From IMG/VR virus record IMGVR_UViG_3300017977_000077, positions 1 to 29,774 of that record: a DNA stretch of 29,774 nt, one strand, 5' to 3'. This document shows positions 3,034 through 5,707 of this stretch, piece after piece (within the stretch, counting starts at the first letter, position 1; the number at the start of each line of letters is the position of its first letter). The position numbers and the translations under genes were made by a program. Below the pieces are notes generated by a model. The model was not told the DNA's origin and searched no databases. It saw only the letters and a list, made by a program, of their open reading frames with translations. This DNA comes from a virus.

Positions 3034-3171
3034 TTAACATGTTTTTTGTTCCAACTGTTTATCCCATAATCTTCTCATATACTTTTGGGTAAGTTTTGAT
3101 TTTGTTACATAACCGTATTTGCTACATATTGGTAAGTTGTTTTTACCTTTTTTAATTATCTTTAAAGCCAT
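3034..3171 (-). CDS. 45-aa basic hypothetical protein
   Basis: Reading minus from the ATG at 3169-3171 gives MALKIIKKGKNNLPICSKYG then YVTKSKLTQKYMRRLWDKQLEQKTC and a TAA at 3034-3036. It is strongly basic, with a possible helix at the C-terminal half. An AAAAAGGA ribosome binding site lies about 6 nt upstream. It is the first gene after the non-coding region at 3172-3614 and so is probably the promoter-proximal gene of the recombination operon. Function unknown. Confidence 0.55.
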   Translation of the reverse strand: MALKIIKKGKNNLPICSKYGYVTKSKLTQKYMRRLWDKQLEQKTC

Positions 3172-3186
3172 TAAAAATCCTTTTTA

Positions 3187-3215
3187 TTGATTTTAAGTTG
3201 TCGACTACTTATAAA
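3187..3215 (+). promoter_or_regulatory. Candidate sigma70 promoter for a plus-strand RNA
   Basis: TTGATT at 3187-3192 and TATAAA at 3210-3215 are separated by 17 nt (4/6 and 5/6 matches). Predicted start near 3222. It points into the gene-free stretch that ends with a strong plus-strand terminator at 3402-3440, so it would make a short RNA of about 220 nt. The neighbouring genes all run the other way. Confidence 0.45.
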
Positions 3216-3247
3216 AGGGGGCATCCTTAAGGAGGGGAAATTACACC

Positions 3248-3276
3248 CTTATATAAATAGTTTTACTTTTGATTAA
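3248..3276 (-). promoter_or_regulatory. Candidate sigma70 promoter for the recombination operon
   Basis: On the minus strand, TTAATC (complement of 3271-3276) and TATAAG (complement of 3248-3253) are separated by exactly 17 nt. The -10 is good (5/6) and the -35 is weak. Transcription would begin near 3241, about 70 nt before the first small gene at 3171. Prediction by eye only. Confidence 0.35.
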
Positions 3277-3387
3277 GTTTTTTTGTGTTATTGTTTTTGC
3301 GTACGAAAGTACGATTTAAGCAGATAAATGATGTAAAAACTATTTCATAAATAGTGAACCATGGGTCTGTAGTGTGGTAGCTACGTT

Positions 3388-3479
3388 CCTTGTGTGAGAT
3401 GAAGCCTCATATCCTTTGTTGGGTATGGGGCTTTTTTTTTGGTCTTTATGGGTTGCGGGTTGGGTATCTCACACCAAGG
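3388..3479 (+). repeat. Inverted repeat able to mask a ribosome binding site
   Basis: CCTTGTGTGAGAT (3388-3400) can pair with ATCTCACACCAAGG (3466-3479), leaving a single bulged C. The intrinsic terminator hairpin lies between the two arms. The right arm contains AAGG of the AAGGA ribosome binding site (3476-3480) for the 31-codon ORF starting at 3486, so pairing would hide it. Confidence 0.6.
3402..3440 (+). terminator. Strong rho-independent terminator
   Basis: A 13-bp stem (3402-3414 with 3421-3433, two U-G pairs) around a 6-nt loop TTTGTT is followed directly by a run of T to 3440. The U-G pairs make it stable only as plus-strand RNA. No long plus-strand gene precedes it, which is the main reason to propose a small RNA here. 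Confidence 0.8.
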
Positions 3480-3485
3480 ATATTC

Positions 3486-3581
3486 ATGATTTCATTTTAT
3501 GAAAGAGTGATTTACATCATCATTGAGGTTGTTAAACTAACAACTGAACTTGTTAAAATCTTCTCAGGGTTAAGCCTATAG
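3486..3581 (+). CDS. Possible 31-aa hydrophobic peptide
   Basis: ATG at 3486 with AAGGA five nt upstream reads MISFYERVIYIIIEVVKLTT then ELVKIFSGLSL. It is an amphipathic, mostly hydrophobic helix with few charges, the size and character of type I toxins such as the roughly 30-aa AapA peptides of Helicobacter. The ribosome binding site lies in the right arm of the 3388/3466 inverted repeat. Much of the coding stretch can itself fold (TTTCAT-ttt-ATGAAA at 3490-3504; GTTGTTA-aac-TAACAAC at 3528-3544). It may equally be untranslated structured RNA; no protein homology is recognised. Confidence 0.3.
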   Translation: MISFYERVIYIIIEVVKLTTELVKIFSGLSL

Positions 3582-3588
3582 AAGTGTT

Positions 3589-3610
3589 GCACGAGTCTAC
3601 CACCTCGTGC
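3589..3610. repeat. Hairpin with loop complementary to an upstream loop
   Basis: A 7-bp stem GCACGAG (3589-3595) / CTCGTGC (3604-3610) closes the loop TCTACCAC. CTACCAC (3597-3603) is the exact complement of GTGGTAG (3374-3380), which is the loop of the hairpin at 3369-3384. This hairpin also sits 5 nt past the end of the minus-strand gene at 3615, so it could act as a weak terminator for it, although neither side has a T run. Confidence 0.5.
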
Positions 3611-3614
3611 TTCC

Positions 3615-3866
3615 TTACTCAAATATTTTAATAAACCAAAGTAATGCAAAAGACAAATAGATAAACATAAGTTCACCTCTTGTGATTAAAACTTTTTCTT
3701 TTAATCTAGAGCATATGCTTTTATTTCCAATGCGGTGTCCTCCTTTATTTACAGTTTCAGTTGGCTTCATAACGACTGTATCCGATACAGGCTTCCGAGT
3801 TGTTCTAACAGGTCTTATATGACCAGGTGGTACTATATTAACCTCTGACGGCGGTATTTTTGGCAT
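3615..3866 (-). CDS. Small membrane-anchored hypothetical protein
   Basis: 83 aa from the ATG at 3864-3866, chosen over an in-frame start nine codons upstream because AAAAGGAAAG lies about 4-6 nt before it. The N-terminal half is Pro/Val/Thr-rich (MPKIPPSEVNIVPPGHIRPV), the middle is basic, and residues about 62-81 (ELMFIYLSFALLWFIKIF) form a single C-terminal membrane helix. No family recognised. A CTTTACATGTAAAG palindrome lies 33 bp upstream, where the -35 element would be, and TAGAAT (complement of 3880-3885) could be the -10, so this gene probably has its own regulated promoter. Confidence 0.55.
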   Translation of the reverse strand: MPKIPPSEVNIVPPGHIRPVRTTRKPVSDTVVMKPTETVNKGGHRIGNKSICSRLKEKVLITRGELMFIYLSFALLWFIKIFE

Positions 3867-3898
3867 ATGCTTTCCTTTTATTCTAAAACACAATAAAA

Positions 3899-3912
3899 CT
3901 TTACATGTAAAG
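3899..3912. promoter_or_regulatory. Palindromic operator-like site, copy 1
   Basis: CTTTACATGTAAAG is a perfect 14-bp palindrome, placed about 20 bp upstream of a possible TAGAAT -10 (minus strand) for the gene starting at 3866. The identical 14-mer recurs at 5513-5526, and its TTACATGTAA core recurs inside the longer palindrome at 4017-4040. Confidence 0.5.
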
Positions 3913-4016: not shown

Positions 4017-4040
4017 TAGAGCCTTACATGTAAGGCTCTA
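4017..4040. promoter_or_regulatory. 24-bp perfect palindrome, operator-like (copy 2)
   Basis: TAGAGCCTTACA followed by TGTAAGGCTCTA is a perfect 24-bp palindrome around the TTACATGTAA core. It lies in the -35 region of the TATAAT at 4052-4057, just before the plus-strand gene at 4064. It could also form a 10-bp RNA hairpin with a CATG loop, but there is no T run on either side, so operator is preferred to terminator. A second hairpin, TGAGTT-ata-AACTCA, lies just upstream at 4001-4015. Confidence 0.55.
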
Positions 4041-4329: not shown

Positions 4330-4419
4330 TCATTTCTTTCCACCACCTAGTAATATAGGGATAATAAATCCTATAAATATTCCAAATAAAAACACAACTA
4401 CTGATTGAACTAAACTCAT
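4330..4419 (-). CDS. 29-aa single-helix membrane peptide
   Basis: ATG at 4417-4419 reads MSLVQSVVVFLFGIFIGFII then PILLGGGKK, stop TGA at 4330-4332. AAAGGA lies 6 nt upstream, an excellent ribosome binding site. It is almost entirely one membrane helix with a GGGKK tail. It is the last of a run of small minus-strand early genes. Function unknown. Confidence 0.5.
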   Translation of the reverse strand: MSLVQSVVVFLFGIFIGFIIPILLGGGKK

Positions 4420-5504: not shown

Positions 5505-5707
5505 TTTTCTTCCTTTACATGTAAAGATAAAAACTTATCTTTTTTTAGTTGTTCTTTTAGTCTAAAAGACTCGGATTGAGTTCCACCATATCCATCTGAT
5601 TTTTTGTCTTTTAAAACCCTCATAGCCCAAACTTTAAACCCCTTTGCCCTTAGATAGTTTGCTACACTTCCAAATTCGTCTCTGATTTCAGCTTCTTTTA
5701 TTGTCAT
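5501..5707 (-). CDS. Cro-position small regulator (probable)
   Basis: 68 aa, first gene transcribed from the consensus early promoter opposite the repressor, the place of cro in lambda. The segment FGSVANYLRAKGFKVWAMRV could be the core of a small helix-turn-helix, followed by a Lys-rich linker and LKEQLKKDKFL. I do not see a textbook HTH signature, so the Cro role rests mainly on position. AAAGG lies about 9 nt before the ATG. It overlaps the antirepressor start by 4 nt. Confidence 0.55.
   Translation of the reverse strand: MTIKEAEIRDEFGSVANYLRAKGFKVWAMRVLKDKKSDGYGGTQSESFRLKEQLKKDKFLSLHVKEEK
5513..5526. promoter_or_regulatory. Palindromic operator-like site, copy 3
   Basis: CTTTACATGTAAAG, identical to the site at 3899-3912, here inside the last codons of the Cro-position gene and overlapping the AAAGGA ribosome binding site of the antirepressor gene (start 5504). 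It may act on DNA, or as an RNA hairpin at the ribosome binding site. Confidence 0.45.

Follow-up and report, generated by a model that had tools for sequence, protein, structure and literature searches.

What does a strongly folded element do among the early genes of a virus? The virus record analysed here (29,774 bases, the whole of which is referred to as the window) encodes RecT, a Bro-N/ORF6C antirepressor, an S24-type repressor and a large terminase. Among genomes, the nearest relatives of this terminase come from a Sulfurimonas MAG and from an uncultured Campylobacteraceae MAG (71%). The minus strand is the main direction of the early genes, from 5707 to 108, and the folded element lies among these, flanked by the minus-strand ORFs 3034–3171 and 3615–3893. 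Elsewhere in the early region, exact TTACATGTAA palindromes are present three times at gene borders (3901–3910, 4024–4033 and 5515–5524) and are candidate repressor operators, and the early operon contains a hydrophobic 29-aa ORF, MSLVQSVVVFLFGIFIGFIIPILLGGGKK, with a good Shine–Dalgarno sequence (SD) at 4330–4419 on the minus strand.

Strand and fold of the element

The MFE z-score is −6.2 for the plus strand and −8.95 for the minus strand, with no shuffle equally low on either. As both strands fold better than all of the shuffles, energy alone does not allow a choice between them. The plus strand is favoured by the internal terminator, which has a U9 run and two G–U pairs that become mismatches on the minus strand, by an ORF and by the promoter kept in relatives. 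A preliminary description of the region had also placed it on the plus strand, on the basis of its U–G pairs and GAAA loop. The features of the plus-strand element are collected in Table 1.

Table 1. Plus-strand features of the folded element, with positions in the window
Feature	Positions	Strand	Remarks
Candidate promoter	3187–3215	+	TTGATT 3187–3192, 17 nt, TATAAA 3210–3215; start ~3222; from sequence
GAAA-capped 5-bp hairpin	3300–3313	+	Leader; from sequence and fold; outside the modelled family core
Outer leader arm	3328–3366	+	Pairs with start codon and first codons, 3482–3520 (MFE fold)
5′ kissing hairpin	3368–3385	+	Loop GTGGTAG 3374–3380
Anti-SD arm, TCCTTGTGTGAGAT	3387–3400	+	Pairs with 3466–3480; helix 3 of alignment A5
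Internal intrinsic terminator	3401–3440	+	14-bp hairpin 3401–3434, T9 3432–3440; helix 4; conserved in the family
Linker with four G-tracts	3441–3464	+	GG 3441–3442, GGG 3450–3452, GGG 3457–3459, GGG 3462–3464
SD arm	3466–3480	+	SD AAGGA 3476–3480; mean unpaired probability 0.03
ORF, 31 codons, MISFYERVIYIIIEVVKLTTELVKIFSGLSL	3486–3581	+	Predicted amphipathic helix; toxin candidate
3′ kissing hairpin	3589–3610	+	Loop CTACCAC 3597–3603; long RNA probably ends here

The hairpins and the long inverted repeat listed in the preliminary description are present in the sequence, but they are not the independent hairpins that it took them for. In the MFE fold of the 3222–3612 transcript they are instead parts of one nested structure, a rod (3328–3400/3466–3520) that buries both the SD and the AUG and within which the terminator hairpin is nested. 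The unpaired probability is 0.02 or less for SD bases 3476–3479 and the start codon, and 0.12 for the last SD base. Deleting all sequence 5′ of 3441 raised the mean unpaired probability of 3475–3481 from 0.23 to 0.47 and that of the AUG from 0 to 0.39. The 7-bp match between the two kissing loops, also described previously, is present, and a 7-nt loop–loop match was reached by chance in 2 of 300 shuffles.

The hairpin and T run that had been described as a terminator are likewise present, and form the only terminator-like site in 3150–3720. The candidate promoter resembles the consensus, as had been pointed out, but failed a promoter scan; a second TATAAA is located at 3252–3257.

The earlier view that the region lacks a confident gene is refuted by the SD-led ORF at 3486–3581. 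This ORF is bracketed by the two kissing hairpins, has a 5-nt spacing between its SD (AAGGA) and the ATG, and is the sole SD-led ORF of at least 15 aa in the region. When the window region was shuffled 3000 times, an SD–ATG ORF of at least 31 aa arose in 89 cases. The hydrophobic moment of the encoded peptide is 0.53, with a peak at the helical angle (TisB 0.50), and AlphaFold2 gave a single helix over residues 4–27 with a mean pLDDT of 92. Peptide searches found no significant sequence homologue and there was no Pfam or NCBIfam match to the 31 residues. Since the peptide has no homologue of its own, the coding status of the ORF rests on its position, its SD and the RNA family. We read the product as a tiny amphipathic membrane peptide, which is probably toxic.

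A weak peptide match had suggested a multi-copy Campylobacter peptide family as a relative, but an HMM ranked the window peptide no higher than background and this link was therefore dropped. The Campylobacter family itself (24–27 aa; MxE[RK]ILxILILxLQLVKELxxLxN) is partly tandem and was seen at loci L122, L123 and L124 of genome G209, L127, L138 and L143 of G375, L132 and L139 of G280, and L140, L141 and L144. It has a conserved RBS hairpin (CTTTC..GGAAAGGAGG), with complementarity between a 5′ loop and a 3′ loop in G209 when inspected by eye, and looks to be another type I toxin family, distinct from this one.

Relatives, covariation and mobile-element contexts

A covariance model (R1) was built from window positions 3360–3492 alone, a stretch that ends 7 nt past the start of the ATG and holds almost no coding sequence. 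Among 397 Campylobacterota genomes, R1 gave matches in 15 at E ≤ 0.05 (best 1.5e-8, several full-length), and 18 matches, the window included, when run on the fetched surroundings of the genome matches. A refined model (R2) found four plasmid copies (E 1.9e-20 to 2.1e-16) and a Helicobacter prophage copy (E 6.6e-10), all of which were outside its training set; the window, which was among the training sequences, scored E 1.2e-33. The 18 members considered in detail below are the window, 13 genome copies and four plasmid copies.

Other searches gave less. BLAST matches in the 397 genomes were mostly chance, with three (G079, G259 and G022) coinciding with covariance-model matches. When the sequence of the region was compared with phages, plasmids and 19 related IMG/VR records, no match could be used, and searches with neighbouring proteins found nothing. 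Related prophages had been suggested as a source of homologous intergenic regions; the position-matched gaps of RecT-bearing relatives were folded and none was homologous. A 436-nt gap 5′ of the exonuclease–RecT genes in one prophage (L117, in G023) is strongly structured (z about −8) and contains two paralogous small hydrophobic ORFs, MEVFISVVDLMTAIIKLALVYLLIKKIKR and MEVFNTILDLVIVALLAVIVYKMGGAK.

The Rfam search that had been recommended gave no score above the gathering threshold for either the window or its relatives. Weak scores of the window for PyrR and trpB reflect the terminator hairpin only, and a riboswitch was rejected. The earlier statement that no matching family could be named was borne out, as Rfam, Pfam and NCBIfam are all without an entry. 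We found no published description in the open PMC literature, and an earlier report elsewhere is possible; plasmid sRNAs of the leader family may already be among those detected in C. jejuni 81-176 dRNA-seq data (PMC3656092).

All 18 members share the kissing hairpin, the anti-SD arm, the terminator with its U run, the G-tract linker, the SD arm, the AUG and a hydrophobic peptide. The U run is accompanied by GG, and 43–50 nt further on comes the SD–ATG of a hydrophobic ORF of 26–32 aa. The partner of the SD lies ~94–106 nt upstream in most members; the model pairs the AUG and not the SD in L188 and L192, and the SD of L190 is paired locally. A plus-strand promoter hexamer is found 5′ of the element at a near-constant distance, with TATAAT or TATAAA 146–190 nt 5′ of the ATG in 15 of the 18 members and none in L187 or L191; the two hexamers of the window are farther away, at 276 and 234 nt. 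In most relatives the 3′ hairpin is followed by a T tract (TTTT), and judging from these sequences the two together are the mRNA terminator. The internal terminator and its U run are conserved in 18 of 18 members and this, together with the covariation described below, makes it probable that there is both a short and a long form of the RNA, as first proposed. In all 18 members the linker that joins U run and SD arm contains four or more G-tracts. The G-tracts of the window linker (3441–3464) and its relatives are compatible with a two-tier RNA G-quadruplex, which would sit in the loop of the rod that locks the SD.

The peptides split into several sequence groups, so that they vary more than the RNA frame does. 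The first (FREEIR; M[DE]xLNxFIAxIAVxxTLFREEIRxxLxxxK) is conserved as amino acids across L181–L186, L190 and L193–L198. The second (AY..IAI.YL) includes MEHTSWLATFAYLMLAVGYILLAVTH, MLHSAFGDLTLHQIAYVLIAILYLLLAFKG and MIELIHSVVTPHRVAYVAIAIIYLYLAWASR. The third, at L189 and L177, has candidate TTG-start ORFs of 18–19 aa, such as LYRVFLLLLILGYLVELY. No such hydrophobic ORF was found by the same rule in L176 or in the second L187 copy. Three leader relatives occur ~300 nt apart at L189.

The preliminary description regarded the element as a plain non-coding sRNA, in which the ORF would be incidental. The internal terminator, the abundant structure and the short, diverse peptide families would suit such an RNA, but the amino-acid conservation of the FREEIR peptides, the constant distance at which the SD-led hydrophobic ORF recurs in 18 members and its rarity by chance (of the 3000 shuffled versions of the window region, just 26 had a hydrophobic SD–ATG ORF of at least 25 aa) make this reading highly improbable. 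The idea of an undescribed phage small RNA thus survives as a structured plus-strand RNA, but one that is an mRNA, and that is common on conjugative plasmids rather than restricted to phages.

Compensatory change among relatives, which had been put forward as a check on the structure, was assessed in alignment A5 (22 sequences from the R2 search). In A5, 90.6% of cells pair and 39 of 41 pairs show two-sided changes, counts that are inflated because the alignment was fitted to the structure; the covariation score is nevertheless 0.681, compared with 0.183 ± 0.014 for shuffled controls and at most 0.16 for slid controls, which thus remain far lower. Two-sided changes are seen in 14 of 14 pairs of the anti-SD helix (helix 3), and positions 3360–3366/3482–3488 of the outer leader arm (helix 1) also covary in relatives.

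The 5′ and 3′ hairpin loops were compared in 14 members. Watson–Crick loop–loop runs are 7 long in the window, L188 and L192, 6 in L190 and L191, and 5 in L182–L185, with shorter runs of 4 in L181, L187 and L193 and 3 in L186. The loops were defined by hand, and the possible bias from this is reduced, though not abolished, by the following swap control. In a reduced set of ten, the matches of loops with their own partners total 53, against 31.8 ± 3.9 when partners are swapped, and none of 20,000 swaps reached 53. The loop pairs can be wholly replaced between members, as in GTGGTAG/CTACCAC, GACTAA/TTAGTC, CGCCCAA/TTGGGCG and TGGTTA/TAACCA. These matches support a real contact between the 5′ and 3′ loops, which would bracket the ORF.

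A similar preference was seen for the leader arms, which pair with their own RBS at −23.3 kcal/mol and with those of others at −17.9 kcal/mol (0 of 20,000 permutations). The own RBS was the single best partner in 7 of 18 members, and in this crude duplex test the window leader showed no preference for its own RBS. The overall preference suggests that recognition is specific to the locus, which would be expected of trans-acting RNAs.

Both phages and conjugative plasmids of Campylobacterota carry the family, which is widespread. Thirty-four plasmids (33 from Campylobacter and 1 from Helicobacter) have a relative of the L185 copy, and 32 of the 34 are conjugative. On pCC42 the element is located between a VirB8/TrbF-like gene and trbL, and on another C. 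coli plasmid it is within an F-type tra region. Next to the genome copies lie genes for TrbL, TrbI and CagX as well as phage tail genes, with a flagellar hook gene in one instance; in the Helicobacter prophage the element is inside the tail operon and is followed by the peptide MDLNILFVVLSMLISIFREEIRDFLNLK. By a simple ORF call the element is opposite to both neighbours in ~17 of 18 co-directional contexts, a count taken over L181–L198 with the window, the Helicobacter prophage and the plasmids, which do not form an independent sample. No signal supported a replication origin or a ColE1-like primer, nor a role in antisense control of the early operon, and the family contexts in conjugation operons and beside phage tail genes speak against both readings.

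A proposed mechanism and its relation to known systems

We consider it fairly likely that the element is an attenuated, translation-locked gene for a small membrane toxin, and that its terminated leader is also its antitoxin. Support is good for the structure, the coding and the family; promoter use, the share of transcripts that terminate, action in trans, toxicity and the trigger are inferences. A single plus-strand promoter would start the leader, and the majority of transcripts would be stopped by the internal terminator at 3440, leaving a short RNA with both the 5′ kissing hairpin and the anti-SD arm. Read-through would produce a longer transcript that includes the ORF and reaches the 3′ hairpin. 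In this long RNA the anti-SD arm would cover the SD and the AUG in cis, and the 5′ loop would kiss the 3′ loop and close the lock. The abundant short RNA, having the same two recognition elements, could act in trans on mRNA that has been processed or opened, binding its SD and 3′ loop, and so serve as the antitoxin; in silico, pairing between the short RNA and the remaining mRNA gains ~19 kcal/mol. If the element were lost or the lock cut, the peptide would be made and the membrane damaged.

All of the structural evidence would be satisfied equally by a lock that acts only in cis. The short form would then be an attenuation by-product and the element a tightly regulated gene for a small membrane protein, for example one for entry or superinfection exclusion, or a modulator of lysis or of mating, with a signal that stops termination and opens the lock. 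Its place inside conjugation and phage operons would fit such an accessory function, and the conserved G-rich linker could serve as a sensor or protein site. However, the loops and arms diverge between loci yet keep their own match, a diversification that a pure cis lock does not need, and the peptides differ in kind (FREEIR, AY..IAI.YL and that of the window). Such variety suits a generic small membrane disruptor better than a protein with a single dedicated function. We therefore regard a lock restricted to cis as unlikely, and prefer action in trans because the recognition sequences co-vary between loci, as would be expected if silencing between neighbouring copies had to be avoided.

A classical type I arrangement, in which the antitoxin is an antisense RNA from the minus strand, was also considered. 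The window has a candidate −10 (TAAAAT, 3630–3625) for an RNA of ~75 nt over the 3′ hairpin, ending after CTTCT..AGAAG-ATTTT at about 3547. This RNA would form two hairpins (z −2.2), and an antisense RNA would have a natural kissing site in the 3′ loop; read-through from the flanking operon would also be antisense to the element, since the two are opposite in nearly all co-directional contexts. Against this, the minus-strand −10 matches are all weak, as is the tail past the second hairpin, and an antisense TATAAT in the ORF or the next 140 nt is present in 1 of 18 members and absent in 17, so that the promoter expected for a classical antisense antitoxin is not conserved. An antisense antitoxin thus seems quite improbable.

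A close parallel for the lock is AapA of Helicobacter, in which a long-distance 5′–3′ contact buries the SD of a small hydrophobic toxin ORF, and which is also multi-copy and locus-specific (PMC6733600). In AapA/IsoA, however, the antitoxin IsoA is a separate antisense RNA and the anti-SD is 3′ of the ORF start, whereas the element has its anti-SD upstream and an internal terminator between leader and ORF, and lacks a conserved antisense promoter. The AapA peptide appears unrelated to that of the window, which has no Pfam or NCBIfam match.

The element also resembles tisB/istR-1, zorO/orzO and hok/sok in having a structured 5′ UTR and an inaccessible RBS, and its peptide resembles TisB and ZorO, which are amphipathic or hydrophobic membrane toxins of ~29 aa (PMC3919570, PMC11449926). 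These systems differ in that the antitoxin gene is divergent or antisense and has its own promoter. To our knowledge, none of the three has a terminator in the toxin leader or kissing 5′ and 3′ hairpins of this kind. The type I systems bsrG/SR4 and yonT/SR6 of prophage SPbeta are, like the element, phage-borne small toxins under RNA control, but their antitoxins are convergent antisense RNAs that overlap the 3′ end of the toxin gene. By analogy with AapA, TisB and ZorO, the element would work like a type I system with a buried RBS. As in type I systems there is, on sequence grounds, a small hydrophobic or amphipathic peptide with an SD. The leader is in silico complementary to the putative toxin mRNA, with burial of the RBS, and might block translation by base pairing. 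For an antitoxin with its own antisense or divergent promoter we found no conserved antisense −10 and only the weak candidate in the window.

The order promoter, RNA, terminator and toxin, with expression by read-through, is that of ToxIN (PMC4147584) and AbiF/RCd22 (PMC12373285), which like the element have one promoter and an intrinsic terminator and are found on plasmids and phages. The same order is present in the window, with the promoter placed by consensus only. In type III systems a toxin protein of ~170 aa is bound by an antitoxin RNA made of tandem repeats, whereas the product of the element is a membrane peptide of 26–32 aa and its RNA is complementary to the RBS. A search of the leader for direct or tandem repeats found none, and the 31-aa product, with no Pfam or NCBIfam match, is not a type III endoribonuclease toxin. 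We therefore place the element in neither type I nor type III, there being no separately transcribed antisense antitoxin on the one hand and no tandem repeats or protein-sized toxin on the other. The window does share what defines the leader family, namely a nested covarying fold and 5′ and 3′ loops that are complementary over 7 bp.

The analysis brings to light an unannotated gene family on Campylobacterota phages and conjugative plasmids (33 Campylobacter plasmids among them), and the covariance model can be used by others to find members and test them in existing RNA-seq data. We tentatively suggest, as a somewhat less than even possibility, that the family represents a new class of RNA-controlled toxin–antitoxin system, absent from the databases searched, on Campylobacterota phages and conjugative elements, C. 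jejuni and C. coli plasmids included. In this class the antitoxin would be the prematurely terminated leader of the toxin mRNA itself, base-pairing in cis and in trans through locus-specific kissing loops and needing no antisense gene. If the leader is the antitoxin, the element would offer a direct test of how the plasmids and phages that carry it are kept, and would combine the base-pairing logic of type I with the attenuator logic of type III in one transcript.
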